From Syntrophomonas sp. DTU019 (GTDB taxonomy: Bacteria > Bacillota > Syntrophomonadia > Syntrophomonadales > Syntrophomonadaceae), in the NCBI GenBank assembly GCA_001512785.1, contig LFSQ01000021.1, positions 1 to 34,597 of the forward strand: a stretch of DNA of 34,597 bases, in the 5' to 3' direction. The first letter of the stretch is position 1, and each line of letters starts with the position of its first letter. The notes below the pieces were generated by a model, which was not told the DNA's origin, did not search any database, and worked only from the letters and a program-made list of their open reading frames with translations. Position numbers and translations under genes: made by a program. Positions 6,285-32,180 of the stretch are shown here, piece after piece.

Positions 6285-6492
6285 AGCTTCACACCTCCTG
6301 TGTGCTTAATTTGCGCCGTATAAGGCGGTAATATTTAAGGTCTGACCGGTGGAATAACACACCAATAAATTTTGTGACAAAGAGTGCTATATAAATCTGA
6401 GACGGTGTAATATAATGAATTAAAACTGAACGACCCTGATGACGAGGTATTTGTGCTTGCTGAATTTAAGGGGTGGGAATTGAGAATGGCCG

Positions 6493-6524
6493 AAGCCTGC
6501 CTGCACCCCTATGCAGACAGGCTT
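6493..6524 (+). promoter_or_regulatory. Hairpin in the leader of the hydrogenase-maturation operon
   Basis: Arms 6493-6505 and 6512-6524 are a 13-bp inverted repeat with one C/A mismatch and a six-base loop. It lies about 30 bases before the preferred start of the TM1266-type gene and about 75 bases after a TATAAT-like box at 6411-6416. It is not followed by a run of T, so it is more likely a structural leader element than a terminator. If the upstream GTG at 6453 (with a GAGGT ribosome binding site) were used, the hairpin would be inside coding sequence. Confidence 0.45.
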
Positions 6525-6554
6525 TATTGTATGGCGGAAAGGGAGTATGAGTCT

Positions 6555-6806
6555 ATGTCCGACAAGCGCCTGGGGGTAATCGGCATTGTTATAGAAGACC
6601 GCGCTTCAGCGGAAGAGGTCAACCAGATTTTAAGCCAGCACGCGGATATGATTGTGGGCCGGATGGGTATTCCCTATCGGGAAAAAGAGGTTAACGTGAT
6701 CGCTTTGATAGTGGACGGCACCACCGACCAATTGGGCTCGCTGACCGGGCGGCTGGGGACTGTACCCCAGGTTACGGTCAAGAGCGCTCTCACCAAGAGG
6801 CGCTGA
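6555..6806 (+). CDS. TM1266-type regulator of the [FeFe]-hydrogenase system
   Basis: An 83-residue ACT/NikR-like ligand-binding domain protein that commonly stands first in bacterial hydG-hydE-hydF operons; its role is thought to be regulatory but is not proven. The body from MSDKRLGVIGIVIEDR to VTVKSALTK fits the family in length and pattern, with alternating beta strands and the GRMGIPYREKEVNVIALIVDG core. An in-frame GTG at 6453 would add 34 residues. I prefer ATG 6555 because a GGGAG ribosome binding site precedes it and the family is usually about 80 residues. The gene opens a cluster with hydG, hydE and hydF. Confidence 0.8.
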   Translation: MSDKRLGVIGIVIEDRASAEEVNQILSQHADMIVGRMGIPYREKEVNVIALIVDGTTDQLGSLTGRLGTVPQVTVKSALTKRR

Positions 6807-6973: not shown

Positions 6974-8431
6974 ATGTTAGCCGCTGTTGCCAAATGGAGA
7001 GATAATGTGATCAAACCGGAGGAGAATGAGCCTTTCCTCAATAAAGGACGCGATTTTATCAATGACAGCCTGATTGAAAACCTGCTGGCAGTCAACCAGC
7101 ATCCCGACCCGGTGAGGATCAGGGAGATAATGGCCAAAGCCCTGGAATTGAATCGCCTGGAATTGGATGAGGCCGCTGTCCTGCTCAACTGTGAGGATGA
7201 GGAACTGTGGGAAGAGATGTATCGTACCGGCCTGCAAATCAAACACAAAGTGTACGGGCGCCGCATCGTCACCTTTGCGCCCCTGTATGTCAGCAATTAT
7301 TGTGTAAACAATTGCACTTACTGCGGGTATCGGGCGGAAAACAAGCATATCCACCGCACCCAGCTGTCCAAAGAGGAGCTGGAGGCAGAAATAAGGGCCC
7401 TGGTTAATCTGGGGCACAAACGATTGATTATGGTATACGGCGAACATCCCAAATCAGATGTAGACTATATTGCGGAGACCATTAAAGTGGCCTATGCCAC
7501 CAAGGAAGGCAATGGCGAAATTCGCCGTGTCAATGTGAATGCCGCCCCGCTCAAGATAGCCGACTATAAAGTCCTGAGGGATGTGGGCATCGGCACCTAC
7601 CAGGTCTTCCAGGAAACCTACCATCACCACACCTATCAGCAGGTGCACCGCAGCATAAAGGCCGACTACCGGTGGAGGCTTTATTCGCTGCACCGGGCTA
7701 TGGAAGCCGGCATCGATGATGTGGGCATAGGAGCCCTGTTCGGCCTTTATGACTGGAAATTTGAGGTCATGGGCTTGCTGGCCCATACCATCGACCTGGA
7801 AAGCAAGTTCGGCGGGGTCGGGCCGCACACCATTTCCTTCCCTCGTCTGCAGCCGGCCGTAAATACCCCCTTTGCAGAACAGAGCCCCTATCTGGTTGAT
7901 GATAGCACTTTCAAAAAGCTGGTTACGGTTATACGCCTCTGTGTCCCCTATACCGGCATGATCATTACCGCCCGGGAGAGGGCCGAGGTGCGCAATGAGG
8001 TGGTAAATGTGGGCTGCACGCAGCTTGATGCCAGTTCCAACATCGGTGTGGGAACATACAGCCAAAAGGAAGTCGACTACAGCAAGCAGCAGTTTATTTT
8101 GGGCGATACCCGCACCCTGGACGAGACTATCAGGGATCTGGCAGAAATGGGCTGGATCACCTCCTTCTGCACCGCCGATTACCGCTGTGGCCGTACCGGG
8201 GAGTGCTTTATGGGTATCGCCAAAAAGGGCAAGATTCACAACCTGTGCATGCCCAATGCCATTCTGACTTTTAAGGAATACCTGTTGGACTATGCCAGCC
8301 CCGAAACCGTCAGGGCAGGGGAGCCGTTGATCGAAAAAGAGCTGCAAGCTCTGCCCAATCCCGAGGTACGCCGGGTGGTACGCGAAATGCTGGACCGCAT
8401 CGAGGCCGGGGAAAGGGATTTGTTTCTATGA
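6974..8431 (+). CDS. hydG: [FeFe]-hydrogenase maturase HydG (radical SAM tyrosine lyase)
   Basis: Radical SAM enzyme that cleaves tyrosine to make the CO and CN ligands of the hydrogenase H-cluster. The 485-residue length fits the family. The SAM cluster motif CX3CX2C is Cys110, Cys114, Cys117 (YCVNNCTYCGY). The TIM-barrel core (for example VFQETYHHHTY) and the C-terminal domain are intact. The C-terminal auxiliary-cluster motif is expected to be CX2CX22C. Here it reads Cys399, Asp402 and Cys425, with spacing exactly preserved but the middle ligand replaced by Asp, and with extra Cys at 405 and 411. Whether this is a known natural subgroup or a loss of function cannot be judged here. The ribosome binding site is GGGGAGG, eight bases before the ATG. 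Confidence 0.93.
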   Translation: MLAAVAKWRDNVIKPEENEPFLNKGRDFINDSLIENLLAVNQHPDPVRIREIMAKALELNRLELDEAAVLLNCEDEELWEEMYRTGLQIKHKVYGRRIVTFAPLYVSNYCVNNCTYCGYRAENKHIHRTQLSKEELEAEIRALVNLGHKRLIMVYGEHPKSDVDYIAETIKVAYATKEGNGEIRRVNVNAAPLKIADYKVLRDVGIGTYQVFQETYHHHTYQQVHRSIKADYRWRLYSLHRAMEAGIDDVGIGALFGLYDWKFEVMGLLAHTIDLESKFGGVGPHTISFPRLQPAVNTPFAEQSPYLVDDSTFKKLVTVIRLCVPYTGMIITARERAEVRNEVVNVGCTQLDASSNIGVGTYSQKEVDYSKQQFILGDTRTLDETIRDLAEMGWITSFCTADYRCGRTGECFMGIAKKGKIHNLCMPNAILTFKEYLLDYASPETVRAGEPLIEKELQALPNPEVRRVVREMLDRIEAGERDLFL

Positions 8432-8467: not shown

Positions 8468-8749
8468 ATGTCTACTCACCACGTTGAGAATATTCCCGCG
8501 ATAATCGGAAAGATGGTCAGGTTGGAGCAGCAGCTTGGCGCGGCCTATCCCGGCATAAAGCTGCGCTGGGCAAGAATTTACGGCAGGCGTTGGTCGCATT
8601 TGCTGGGCGAGGTGCATGATCCCACCGCTGTTCCGATGAAATTGCAGATAAATAATGAATATGGGGTAATAATCGAAAAACACGAGATATTGGCTATGGA
8701 GGATGTGGAAAATATTGTCGGCCTGCTTAAAGGAGAGTTCGGAGAATGA
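8468..8749 (+). CDS. Unrecognised 93-residue protein between hydG and hydE
   Basis: A small soluble protein with no cysteines, signal peptide or membrane segment. It has a basic central stretch (LRWARIYGRRWSHLLGEV) and a mixed alpha/beta pattern. Its stop overlaps the hydE start by four bases (ATGA), so the two genes are translationally coupled, and it sits in the middle of the maturase operon. Those two facts suggest a role in H-cluster assembly or its control, but I do not recognise a family and will not assign a function. The ribosome binding site is AAGGGAG upstream of ATG 8468. Confidence 0.8.
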   Translation: MSTHHVENIPAIIGKMVRLEQQLGAAYPGIKLRWARIYGRRWSHLLGEVHDPTAVPMKLQINNEYGVIIEKHEILAMEDVENIVGLLKGEFGE

Positions 8750-9810
8750 GGTTCATGGGGTGGGACCTGGAAGCTGTTTTGAGCAGTGCTGATCCCGGCC
8801 TCTTCGGCCAGTTGCTGGCAGCCGCAGAAAAAAACCGGCTGGCTTTTCGGGGAGATGAGGTCTATGTGCGGGGGCTGATCGAATACAGCAACCAGTGCCG
8901 AAGGGACTGCCTGTACTGCGGGCTGCGGGTTTCCAACCGCAGTCTTGAGCGCTATCACCTGCAGGCGGAGGAGATAATAGAGCTGGGCCTGGCCATCTAC
9001 CGGGCGGGGATAACCTCTATAGCCTTGCAGGCCGGGGAAAACAGCAGTGACCGGGAAGTTGAGCGGATAGCCGGGGTAGTCAGCGAACTCAGGGAGAAAA
9101 GCATGCAGGAGAGGCCGCCCGGACTGGGTGTGACCCTGAGCCTGGGGGAAATGACTTACCGGCAGTACAAGCGGCTCTACGATGCCGGAGCGCACCGTTA
9201 CCTGCTGCGCATCGAAAGCAGCGATGTGCAGGTTTTCAAGCGCATCCATCCTCCCCGGCAGGTTTATGAACGGCGCCTGGAATGCCTGCATTACCTGAAA
9301 GATATCGGCTACCAGGTAGGGACCGGGGTTATGATCGGCCTGCCCGGGCAGAGCTACGCCAGTCTGGCTGCCGATCTCAATTTCTTTGTGGAGCAGGACA
9401 TCGACATGCTGGGGATGGGGCCTTATATACCGCATCACGACACCCCTCTGGCCAAAGCCCGGGACTATATCATCCAGGATGCTTTCGGCACCAGTATAAA
9501 GATGATGGCCCTGGCCCGGTTGATGATGCCCGACATCAACATGGTGGTATCAACCGCCCTGCAAAACATTAATCCAGAAGGGCTCAGACTGGGTGTCAAA
9601 GCGGGGGGCAACGTGGTTATGCCGGTTTTTACCCCTCAAGAACACCAGGCCGAATATGCCCTGTACCCCAACAAAGAAACCAAAAGCCTGGAAAGCATAC
9701 GCCTGGAGGTTGAATCCGCCGGCTACCGCTTATGCCTCAGCAAATGGGGCGATTCCCCGCATTACTTTAACAGGCAGTTGGCTGCCGGTAAGAAGGAAGG
9801 CCTGGCCTGA
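8746..9810 (+). CDS. hydE: [FeFe]-hydrogenase maturase HydE (radical SAM)
   Basis: Radical SAM enzyme that processes the HydG product on the way to the diiron subcluster with its dithiomethylamine bridge. The 354-residue length is normal. The SAM cluster motif CX3CX2C is Cys51, Cys55, Cys58 (NQCRRDCLYCGL), followed by the family-typical LQAGENSSDREVERI, LLRIESSDVQVFKRIHP and VMIGLPGQSYASLAADL motifs. There is no cysteine triad near the C-terminus, so the optional second Fe-S cluster seen in some HydE proteins is absent. Translation is coupled to the preceding gene by an ATGA overlap. The gene tail GCCTGGCCTG is echoed 64 bp downstream. Confidence 0.95.
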   Translation: MRFMGWDLEAVLSSADPGLFGQLLAAAEKNRLAFRGDEVYVRGLIEYSNQCRRDCLYCGLRVSNRSLERYHLQAEEIIELGLAIYRAGITSIALQAGENSSDREVERIAGVVSELREKSMQERPPGLGVTLSLGEMTYRQYKRLYDAGAHRYLLRIESSDVQVFKRIHPPRQVYERRLECLHYLKDIGYQVGTGVMIGLPGQSYASLAADLNFFVEQDIDMLGMGPYIPHHDTPLAKARDYIIQDAFGTSIKMMALARLMMPDINMVVSTALQNINPEGLRLGVKAGGNVVMPVFTPQEHQAEYALYPNKETKSLESIRLEVESAGYRLCLSKWGDSPHYFNRQLAAGKKEGLA

Positions 9811-9924: not shown

Positions 9925-11175
9925 ATGGGCACTTTAAACGAAACCAGCCGGGGGATGAGGACCGCGATCGCTTTTCTGGGGCGCAGAAATGCCGGCAAAT
10001 CATCGCTGCTCAACGCTCTGGTGGGCTACGACCTGGCCATTGTTTCGGCTACCGCCGGAACTACCTCCGATCCGGTGCACAAAGCGGTGGAAATCAATCC
10101 CCTGGGGCCCTGCCTGGTTATCGATACCGCCGGCCTTGATGACAGCGGCGAGCTGGGCCAAAAACGCATCGACAAGACTATGGAGGTCATCAATGACAGC
10201 GATGTAGGGGTAATAGTGGTTGGAGACGGGCAGTGGACCGGATTCGAGGATGATATAGTAAAACGCCTGCAGGCCCAAAAGCGGCCTTTCATCGTGGCCT
10301 TGAACAAGTCCGATTGTTATGAATACAGCACCCTCAAAAAGCAACTCCAGCAGAAGGGCATTGATGCCGTGGTTACGATGGCTGTCCACACCGAGGGCAT
10401 AAATGAATTGAAGGAAAAAATCCGCTCCCTCAAGCTGGGTGAAAAAGATGAATCTTGGGCTATCGCCGGTGATCTGCTCCAGCCCGGCGATGTGGCAATT
10501 TTGGTGGTACCCATCGATTTGGGTGCCCCCAAAGGGCGCTTGATCCTGCCTCAGGTTCAAACCCTGCGCGATCTGCTGGATCATAACATCCTGGCCCTGG
10601 TAGTCAAGGAGAATCAATTGGCCAATATGCTGGAAAAGCTAGCCTGCCCGCCGGATCTGGTAATCACTGATTCTCAGGTGGTCAATGAGGTGTCCGCCGC
10701 TTTGCCGCCGGATATTCCCCTGACCACTTTTTCCACCCTGTTTGCCCGCTTTAAATCCAGAGGCCTGTTCTGCGCCCTGCTTGAAGGGGTTAAGAAGATC
10801 GAGCAACTCGAGGATGGAGCCCGTATTTTGATAGCGGAAGCATGCACTCATCACGCTATGGCCGATGATATCGGGCGGGTCAAACTGCCCCGCTGGCTGC
10901 GGGAGTATACCGGAAAAAGGCTTGACTTTGAGGTGGCGGCCGGACCGGCCCTAAAACGCGACCTCAGGCAATACGATATGGTCATCCAATGCGGGGGATG
11001 TATGCTCACCCCGACGGTGTACCAGAATCGGGTGAGAGAGGCCAGCAGCCTGGGGGTAGCGATCAGCAACTATGGACTGGTGATCTCTTATATACAGGGA
11101 GTGCTGCCGCGCATCATCAGTCCCTTCCCGGAATTGCGGGATCTGTCGCGCGAATTAACCGGGATTGGGCTTTAA
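9925..11175 (+). CDS. hydF: [FeFe]-hydrogenase maturation GTPase HydF
   Basis: GTPase and Fe-S scaffold that carries the diiron precursor and hands it to apo-hydrogenase. The 416-residue protein begins with a GTPase domain: Walker A GRRNAGKS (19-26), a Thr-rich switch (ATAGTTSDP), DTAGLDD (around 67-73) and NKSD (around 127-130). A dimerisation region and the C-terminal cluster domain follow. The usual cluster motif is CxHx(44-53)HCxxC. Here it is Cys307-Thr-His309, 45 residues, then Gln355-Cys356-Gly-Gly-Cys359, so the second His is Gln. That position is reported to vary between species. The ribosome binding site is AGGAGG, nine bases before ATG. Confidence 0.94.
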   Translation: MGTLNETSRGMRTAIAFLGRRNAGKSSLLNALVGYDLAIVSATAGTTSDPVHKAVEINPLGPCLVIDTAGLDDSGELGQKRIDKTMEVINDSDVGVIVVGDGQWTGFEDDIVKRLQAQKRPFIVALNKSDCYEYSTLKKQLQQKGIDAVVTMAVHTEGINELKEKIRSLKLGEKDESWAIAGDLLQPGDVAILVVPIDLGAPKGRLILPQVQTLRDLLDHNILALVVKENQLANMLEKLACPPDLVITDSQVVNEVSAALPPDIPLTTFSTLFARFKSRGLFCALLEGVKKIEQLEDGARILIAEACTHHAMADDIGRVKLPRWLREYTGKRLDFEVAAGPALKRDLRQYDMVIQCGGCMLTPTVYQNRVREASSLGVAISNYGLVISYIQGVLPRIISPFPELRDLSRELTGIGL

Positions 11176-29445: not shown

Positions 29446-29998
29446 AAGCATCTACCCGGGCGAAGCCCCAGTCCTGCCATTGCCAGGTAGAGCGGGTGGC
29501 AGGATAGGGGAATGTTGAACGTTCTTTTATTTCCAGAGATACCTGCTGGGCATTGTCGGTTATGGCCGAGATGTCAGCAATGGGAGGGTCAATGGCCGAA
29601 GAACACCATACCGCTCTCATCCTTCCCGCCTGCAGGCGGTACATGAAGAGGTGGCAGCTGTAAGCCCGGTCTGCTGACTGCCAAAACGGCCTGACATCCC
29701 CAAAACTGCCGTGTTTCCATAAGACCATCAACAGCTCGTCAACACCGTCATTATCGGCGTCAGCCAGCAGTATCCGCTCAATTTCCCACTCTGCCGGTGT
29801 TTGCCAGATCATTTGCCGGCCTTCCCAAACCGTAAGCTGCTTGTTTACCAGATGATAGCTTTCTAGGATCCCGTTAAGATCAGTATCTCTCGATATGAGC
29901 ACATTTTCTGGCTCCGCTGCCGAGATTTGCCCCCCGATGAAACCCACAGCAAAGCACAGCAGGAATATGGCGGCCAGTCTAATCATGCTGCTGCTCAT
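29444..29998 (-). CDS. Secreted protein with FG-GAP/VCBS-like calcium motifs
   Basis: A 184-residue protein with an N-terminal signal or anchor helix (AAIFLLCFAVGFIGGQ, cut near ISAAEP). Two Asp-rich loops, SRDTDLNGILESY and LADADNDGVDELL, resemble calcium-binding loops of FG-GAP/VCBS beta-propeller repeats. Only one to two repeats are present, so it is not a full propeller. Its start lies within the end of the DUF3160 gene (20-bp overlap), so the two form a translationally coupled pair and probably act together outside the cell. Confidence 0.62.
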   Translation of the reverse strand: MSSSMIRLAAIFLLCFAVGFIGGQISAAEPENVLISRDTDLNGILESYHLVNKQLTVWEGRQMIWQTPAEWEIERILLADADNDGVDELLMVLWKHGSFGDVRPFWQSADRAYSCHLFMYRLQAGRMRAVWCSSAIDPPIADISAITDNAQQVSLEIKERSTFPYPATRSTWQWQDWGFARVDA

Positions 29999-32180
29999 TT
30001 TCCCACGGCATGATGATGCGGCATGAACCGTCTATTGCAAAAACCCTGGTCCATTCCGGGGGTGGCGGGGCCTGCCGGTTTTCCAGCATCTGTCTCCATT
30101 TTTCATCAGTCAGGCGGTCGGTTGCCGGCCAGGGGAATTCATAATGGCTGTAAACCCCGCCTTTTACAATGCGCAGCCTGCCATCCACCGGAACCACGGC
30201 ATAAATGGACTGCACATAGCCATTGCCTTCTTCCAGGACCAGATCCGGTGGGGCGGTAGCTACATCAGCCACCAGCATGGCCGGATTGTCGTTCAACAGC
30301 TTGGAGCGCCCCCCTTCCTGGTCCTGCAGGGTTTCCATCCAAAAGTGCTCCAGCTGGCCGCCAATGCTGCGGATAAGCTCATATTCTTCCTCAGTCAGGG
30401 GCTGGTTTTGCAGCTCTTTTTCCGATATGGTCTTTAAGCTTAAGGCCAAAGTCTCCATCAGCTGCAGGCTTTGCTCATCTCGCTCGGAAATCAGCCCCCG
30501 GCTTTTAAGCCCTTCACGGGTCATGGCGGCCAGGGAAGCCAGATTGGCGTAGCAGTGCGGATCAGGCTCAACATAGCCGCGGTCATCGATTTTATCATCG
30601 TAACCGCCGCCCATTTCCGCATAAACCTGTTTGCTGTAAAGGATGGTGTCATGCTTCAATTCGGTCCAGCTGCCCAGGAAAGTATTCAGGCTCTTGCGGG
30701 CCCAGGCCTGATTGAGCATGAAGCTGGGGTAGCCCTGGGTTTTTTCCGCTACTACCGATTTTAAGGTTTTCATCCAGCTCCAGTACAGGTTGTGATGCCA
30801 GAGCGAAGCATCCAAACCGGCTATATGCTCTTTTATGCGCTGCATATTCTGGGGATAGTTTTTATACTGGGTTTCACCCTCCGCCTCCAGGATCCGATAG
30901 GCTTCTTCTGATCCCATAGCCGCCGGAATATCCAGCCCTTTGGGCAGCAGGCGGCGTTCGCCGGCCGGGTTTTCTTCCACTTCGCGATATACCAGGCGTT
31001 GAAATATATCGGCATCGATAGTATAGCGCTGCCCCATAAAGCGGAATCCCTTTACTTCCTGTTCCCGGTCGGGTTGTATATTGGCATCGAAGATCGGGAT
31101 GGAGTTGATTTTAGGGCCTTCTAAGTCCCTGGCTTGCGATAAGAACTGCTGCCACCTGTCATTGTCGCTTATCAGGGTATTAAGGCTGCTCTCAGCGCCG
31201 TAAACCTTGTCCAGCAGTTCGGAGTAAGCTATGCAGCCGGGGTCATCGCTTTCCCCCACGAAAAAGCTGGTAGTCTGGTAGATTTTATCCCATGATGACT
31301 GGTTGGAGCCGTTCCTCAAAGCCAGGGTCATCAATACCGCCGACCTGGTCTCGTCTTCATTCTTCAGCCGGAAAGTCATGCGCCCGTACCACATCATGTT
31401 CTGAAAGTAGGATTCGAGATTCTCGCTGCGGGTATAATGACCGCGGGGGATGTATTGAGTGTAGTCCTCCTTTAAGGATTCCAGCGGGTCAGGTGTTGAA
31501 CCCATGGCCATCAGCGGTGAGGTGGCGGCCTGATTGTGTTCCTGGATGAGCTTCAACTCCGCCTCAACTACATCTTTCACCTCCTGAGGGATCTTCACAC
31601 TGGGATCCAAAAGGCGGCTGCCTACTGCAAAAAAGGCCATATTGCGGCGGGCGGCATTTTCCCAGGGGGTATTTTTCAAGGCTTGATATTGTTGCTGCGA
31701 GGCCGCCAGCATACCCTGGTTGAGCTGCTGCAGTTCATTGCGCAGGTAATTCTCCTCCGCGCTTTTTAAGAGATGTTCAAAAAACAGGTGGTAGTTATGC
31801 AGCATGGCATCAGTGGTGACAAAATTGGGTATGCCATCGTAGCGGTTAATTTCATAAAGCATGAAGAATTCCTGATGCATTTGCGGCAGGACCACAAAAC
31901 CGTTTTTGGCCAGCAGGGCCTGAGCCTCAGGTGAAAATTCAAAGCGCCCCCGGTTCTCTACATTGCTGAGGTCGGCCTTAACCTGATAAGGTGCTACTTG
32001 CGGTTTAACCTGTACGGTTACCTCACGATAAGGTGCAAATTCGGCGGCTTGAGCCACACCAGCCGGCCCGAACTTCTCGTGCAGCAGTTCCTTACTGCTG
32101 GGAGTGCAGCCGCTAAGAATCGTGGTTAACATTAAAACGACCAGCAGCACGCTGATTGACTTGATGTGAATGGCCTTCAC
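29979..32180 (-). CDS. DUF3160 lipoprotein
   Basis: A 733-residue exported lipoprotein. A 24-residue signal peptide ends in the lipobox LSGC with Cys25. The long helical body has the DUF3160 motifs FVTTDAMLHNYHLFFEHLL near residue 120 and SWTELKHDTILYSKQ near residue 500. The function of the family is unknown. The start is GTG (complement of 32178-32180) with a GGGGAGGGG ribosome binding site. The downstream partner gene overlaps by 20 bp. Confidence 0.83.
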   Translation of the reverse strand: MKAIHIKSISVLLVVLMLTTILSGCTPSSKELLHEKFGPAGVAQAAEFAPYREVTVQVKPQVAPYQVKADLSNVENRGRFEFSPEAQALLAKNGFVVLPQMHQEFFMLYEINRYDGIPNFVTTDAMLHNYHLFFEHLLKSAEENYLRNELQQLNQGMLAASQQQYQALKNTPWENAARRNMAFFAVGSRLLDPSVKIPQEVKDVVEAELKLIQEHNQAATSPLMAMGSTPDPLESLKEDYTQYIPRGHYTRSENLESYFQNMMWYGRMTFRLKNEDETRSAVLMTLALRNGSNQSSWDKIYQTTSFFVGESDDPGCIAYSELLDKVYGAESSLNTLISDNDRWQQFLSQARDLEGPKINSIPIFDANIQPDREQEVKGFRFMGQRYTIDADIFQRLVYREVEENPAGERRLLPKGLDIPAAMGSEEAYRILEAEGETQYKNYPQNMQRIKEHIAGLDASLWHHNLYWSWMKTLKSVVAEKTQGYPSFMLNQAWARKSLNTFLGSWTELKHDTILYSKQVYAEMGGGYDDKIDDRGYVEPDPHCYANLASLAAMTREGLKSRGLISERDEQSLQLMETLALSLKTISEKELQNQPLTEEEYELIRSIGGQLEHFWMETLQDQEGGRSKLLNDNPAMLVADVATAPPDLVLEEGNGYVQSIYAVVPVDGRLRIVKGGVYSHYEFPWPATDRLTDEKWRQMLENRQAPPPPEWTRVFAIDGSCRIIMPWENEQQHD

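Follow-up and report, generated by a model that had tools for sequence, protein, structure and literature searches.

The window, by which we mean the whole stretch of DNA analyzed here (34,597 nucleotides of contig LFSQ01000021.1 from Syntrophomonas sp. DTU019), carries hydG together with hydE and hydF on the same strand. HydG is the enzyme that starts the assembly of the [FeFe]-hydrogenase metal center. The genes around it are as follows:

6453..6806, + strand: TM1266-family putative hydrogenase-system regulator, upstream of hydG (TIGR03959, 115 bits, cut-off 60.8)
6974..8431, + strand: hydG, radical SAM maturase of 485 aa (TIGR03955 score and match of the AF2 model to 4wcx)
8468..8749, + strand: small conserved ORF of 93 aa in the hydG-hydE interval (no family matched)
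8746..9810, + strand: hydE (TIGR03956, 292 bits, cut-off 254.6)
9925..11175, + strand: hydF (TIGR03918, 497 bits, cut-off 325.55)

Further along the window, we noted a putative Se/S carrier-like protein (PF11823; 11780-12061, + strand), two genes 3' of hydF, and a large DUF3160 protein (788 bits; 29979-32180, - strand).

The small ORF (8468-8749) has no relative in Pfam, NCBIfam, or PDB; by gene order, its counterpart may be T. maritima TM1268. Homologs with a common core of approximately G.RW....G lie directly 3' of hydG in 47 of 153 loci from several phyla. They were found at 43 of the 81 loci whose HydG lacks the canonical second cluster cysteine (C402, see below) versus 4 of the 72 canonical loci; however, their distribution follows phylogeny, and we therefore rejected a link to ligand type and draw no evidence about the cluster from this ORF. 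The S. wolfei homolog, SWOL_RS05185, was co-cloned in a published reconstitution (PMC5626996).

The product of hydG scored 526.1 bits against the TIGR03955 HydG profile, passing the curated equivalog cut-off of 312.15, and 273.7 bits against the ThiH profile, under the ThiH cut-off of 380. A Foldseek search with its AF2 model (pLDDT 94.3) returned 4wcx HydG as the best PDB match (TMq 0.91, 51% identity over 462 columns); the model and the search also place in the protein a C-terminal domain that is absent from ThiH, with a 4WCX-like fold. Model confidence is lowest in the loop at residues ∼401-410 (mean pLDDT 75). The nearest solved structures are 4WCX and 4RTB. The residues considered below are located as follows, with conservation given for the 166 HydG proteins that we collected:

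7301..7324, + strand: radical-SAM CX3CX2C motif, C110/C114/C117 (invariant)
7784..7786, + strand: H271, which aligns with the conserved His in 4WCX HydG (invariant)
8168..8170, + strand: C399, first auxiliary-cluster cysteine (invariant)
8177..8179, + strand: D402 (GAT), at the canonical second-cysteine position (C79/G69/D18)
8186..8188, + strand: C405, proposed relocated second ligand, CX5CX19C (0/79 with C402, 77/87 without)
8204..8206, + strand: C411, probably non-ligand (C/Y/H/K/R/D among relatives)
8246..8248, + strand: C425, third auxiliary-cluster cysteine (invariant)

We take H271 to be the equivalent of the histidine that has been reported as a ligand of the dangler iron.

In the translation of 6974-8431, the auxiliary-cluster motif reads SFC399TAD402YRC405GRTGEC411, followed by FMGIAKKGKIHNL between C411 and C425, and then by MPNA. 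This bears out, codon by codon, the preliminary description, in which CX2CX22C was said to be replaced by C399-T-A-D402 and C425 with the 22-residue spacing kept and with further cysteines at 405 and 411. The spacing from 402 to 425 is also that of 4WCX in the alignment. The literal CX2CX22C is thus missing at D402, and C399, C405, and C425 are present with C402 absent, the combination that defines the CX5CX19C subgroup. A sequencing error at 8177-8179, raised earlier as a possible explanation, can be excluded because GAT is at least two bases away from any Cys codon (two from TGT) and because many independent genomes have a codon of the same class there. CTADYRC is shared by the nearest isolates, Syntrophomonas zehnderi, S. 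wolfei subsp. methylbutyratica, and Thermosyntropha lipolytica, each sequenced independently, and is also found in others and in genomes G023, G036, G014, and G145.

To describe how residues 402 and 405 vary, we used all 166 distinct HydG proteins collected, a set that is enriched for window-like sequences. Residue 402 was Cys in 79, Gly in 69, and Asp in 18, and nothing else. By residues 402 and 405 together, the set fell into 79 proteins with C402 and a residue other than Cys at 405, 59 with Gly402 and C405, 18 with Asp402 and C405, and 10 with Gly402 and no Cys at 405. C402 and C405 never occurred in the same protein (0/166): C405 was seen in none of the 79 HydGs with C402 and in 77 of the 87 without it, including all 18 with Asp402. 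C399, C425, H271, and C110/C114/C117 were invariant throughout. C411 varied even between close relatives, and we rejected it as a cluster ligand for want of conservation across the 166 proteins. The earlier suggestion of reassigned ligands therefore holds for C405 and falls for C411. Since C402 was absent from 87 of 166 HydGs, in a sample enriched for window-like sequences, the literal CX2CX22C is not universal.

We also surveyed the phylum with a degenerate DNA pattern in which positions 402 and 405 were left free, applied to an even draw of 299 genomes; a further sub-draw of the same phylum overlaps this survey and adds nothing to the counts. Among 149 motif matches, 131 had C402 and no C405, 7 had Gly402 and C405, 5 had Asp402 and C405, 6 had Gly402 without C405, and none had both cysteines, tallies that are slight undercounts, as the pattern missed a HydG of genome G087 that has Gly instead of Ala at 401. 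Smaller draws taken from two further phyla agreed with this.

We placed the HydGs on a FastTree phylogeny from which the motif columns were left out. The starred set containing the window comprises 18 rows (11 with Asp402 and C405, 5 with Gly402 and C405, and 2 with Gly402 and no C405) and is nested in a starred set of 75 rows, all of which lack C402. State changes on the tree number 17 in all, and the presence of C402 changes 5 times; the Asp402 label changes 8 times, at least 6 of which are forced by starred branches. Close relatives can differ in this respect, as do L007 (Asp402) and L008 (Gly402), both of which have C405. The idea that CTADYRC, or Asp402, marks a clade was thus not supported, and we rejected Asp402 as a clade marker: Asp and Gly interchange repeatedly inside a larger Gly/Asp group. 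The exchange of C402 for C405 yields 3-5 independent pairs, each in the same direction or without difference, on which a sign test is not significant and has no power; with so few independent pairs, covariation that is near-perfect in counts is weak in independent events.

Is an Asp402/C405 HydG functional? Losey et al. (2017) obtained hydG, the small ORF, and hydE of S. wolfei by PCR as a single fragment, which they co-expressed in E. coli with hydF and hyd1ABC from the same species (PMC5626996). Active hydrogenase required co-expression of the maturases, and the resulting Hyd1ABC showed activities of 571 U/mg (methyl viologen) and 94.5 U/mg (NAD+) (PMC5626996). Both primers printed in that paper match the S. 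wolfei genome G023. The predicted G023 amplicon of 2,846 bases encodes a 487-aa HydG with SFCTADYRCGRTGGCFMGIAKKGKIHNLC, and this protein has all the motif residues of the window HydG, C411 included. Since maturation took place in E. coli, which is not known to have HydEFG of its own, the Asp402/C405 HydG is functional. The reconstitution speaks for a working pathway and not for the identity of the cluster ligand. Altered chemistry, which the preliminary description had considered, is unsupported, as the S. wolfei HydG, whose motif is identical, yielded a highly active [FeFe]-hydrogenase when combined with HydE and HydF from the same organism (PMC5626996). The preliminary description would have been refuted by a wide HydG subgroup that already carries Asp at this position and is demonstrably active, and this is what we find.

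The genome of the window is consistent with such a role. It encodes [FeFe]-hydrogenase homologs, one of them with intact H-cluster motifs (TSCSPGW/MPCVAKKFE/EVMACPGGCVGGGGQ), so the window HydG has neighboring hydE and hydF genes and a hydrogenase to mature. We looked for a second, canonical HydG, a search that had been proposed as a check, and found none in this genome (92.8% complete); the other match is HydE, under the HydG cut-off.

Ten HydGs have Gly402 with Ala, Ile, or Thr at 405 and hence two of the three auxiliary-cluster cysteines (L109, L144, L125, L023, L030, L035, L055, L068, L148, and L149). Two of them belong to the window's own family (G024 and G229), and Clostridium aestuarii contributes another. 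Of the seven genomes checked, six had no other HydG; hydrogenases were looked for in six of the seven, and all six had [FeFe]-hydrogenases. The seventh case, G087, has two HydGs, one with Gly402/Ala405 and one with C402 in the motif CTGCYRKGRTG (L230, G087:C34). Because six of seven such genomes have no other HydG, C405 is not strictly required in every C402-less HydG. Extra nearby cysteines occur in some of the ten (C390/C394, C419, or C348), and none is common to all. It is conceivable, though we consider it doubtful, that these proteins build the synthon on a cluster held by two cysteines and a non-canonical ligand, in which case the relocation to C405 in the window HydG would be an optional refinement.

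Overall, we consider it very likely that the window HydG is an ordinary functional member of the CX5CX19C subgroup, with its auxiliary [4Fe-4S] cluster on C399, C405, and C425 rather than on C399, C402, and C425. We infer that C405 physically binds the cluster and that the chemistry has stayed the same. The second ligand would have moved by three residues, from C402 to C405, to give CX5CX19C, and position 402, freed of ligand duty, could then have become Gly or Asp. Both residues occur frequently at tight turns. The reaction cycle would presumably be the standard one, with tyrosine cleaved by HydG and CO and CN- delivered to the dangler iron to form the Fe(CO)2CN synthon. We found no spectroscopy of a CX5CX19C-type HydG in the literature searched.

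Three other readings were weighed against this one. The carboxylate of Asp402 could itself replace the cysteine as second ligand, tuning the auxiliary cluster or making it labile; it occupies the very position of the cysteine, the 22-residue spacing is unchanged, and other proteins are known to have [4Fe-4S] clusters with an Asp ligand. However, Asp swaps freely with the non-ligating Gly in close relatives such as L007 and L008 while C405 stays, and C405 is kept in 18 of 18 Asp402 proteins, so that, judged from sequence, Asp402 is an unlikely ligand and we give this reading little credence. Slightly more room has to be left for the view that neither C402 nor C405 is essential and that all C402-less HydGs rely on C399, C425, and a non-Cys or exogenous ligand, with C405 helpful and dispensable. 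The ten Gly402 proteins without C405 argue for it, coming as they do from genomes with [FeFe]-hydrogenases (six checked) and mostly without a second HydG; against it stand the presence of C405 in 77 of 87 C402-less proteins and never with C402, and the extra cysteines near the motif in some of the ten. It, too, appears improbable to us.

The least probable reading, which we regard as very remote, is that the auxiliary cluster has degenerated or been lost, leaving a cyanide-only enzyme or a pseudo-maturase. One canonical motif residue is indeed missing, and King et al. (2006), as cited in PMC9431212, is given there as showing that C. acetobutylicum HydG cannot do without its C-terminal motif. 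Maturation by the motif-identical S. wolfei protein contradicts this reading, assuming that the cloned sequence equals that of the genome (PMC5626996), and all other ligands are invariant in the 166 HydGs. Furthermore, the window HydG is the sole HydG of a genome with [FeFe]-hydrogenases and lies beside hydE and hydF.

The CX5CX19C assignment has a practical side. A large fraction of genuine HydGs escapes the textbook CX2CX22C signature, so genome surveys that insist on it will report HydG as missing when it is present; hydG was unassignable by motif in 5 of 8 acetogens (PMC9431212). The natural shift of the cysteine, and especially those HydGs that have neither C402 nor C405, provide ready-made variants for asking which ligands the dangler-iron cluster needs.

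The form itself is not new, as C-x(5)-C-x(19)-C was described in 2022 as the presumed C-terminal cluster motif of Clostridium autoethanogenum HydG (PMC9431212), where Duffus et al. (2012) is cited for variability of the C-terminal motif. What is new here is the extent of CX5CX19C, the finding that C402 and C405 strictly exclude each other, the interchange of Gly and Asp at 402, and the connection with the reconstituted S. wolfei pathway. By the published motif description, C. autoethanogenum HydG (CLAU_RS03260) shares CX5CX19C with the window HydG (PMC9431212). S. wolfei HydG (SWOL_RS05190) shares with it the motif CTADYRCGRTG.C...C425 and the gene order of hydG, small ORF, and hydE, but S. 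wolfei hydF (SWOL_RS01625) lies elsewhere in the genome whereas hydF of the window follows hydE. The HydGs of Thermoanaerobacter italicus (4WCX) and Carboxydothermus hydrogenoformans (4RTB) share with the window HydG the radical-SAM site, the histidine, and the first and third auxiliary cysteines, and the whole fold is that of 4WCX (TMq 0.91); unlike the window HydG, both have CTAC at 399-402 and no Cys at 405.
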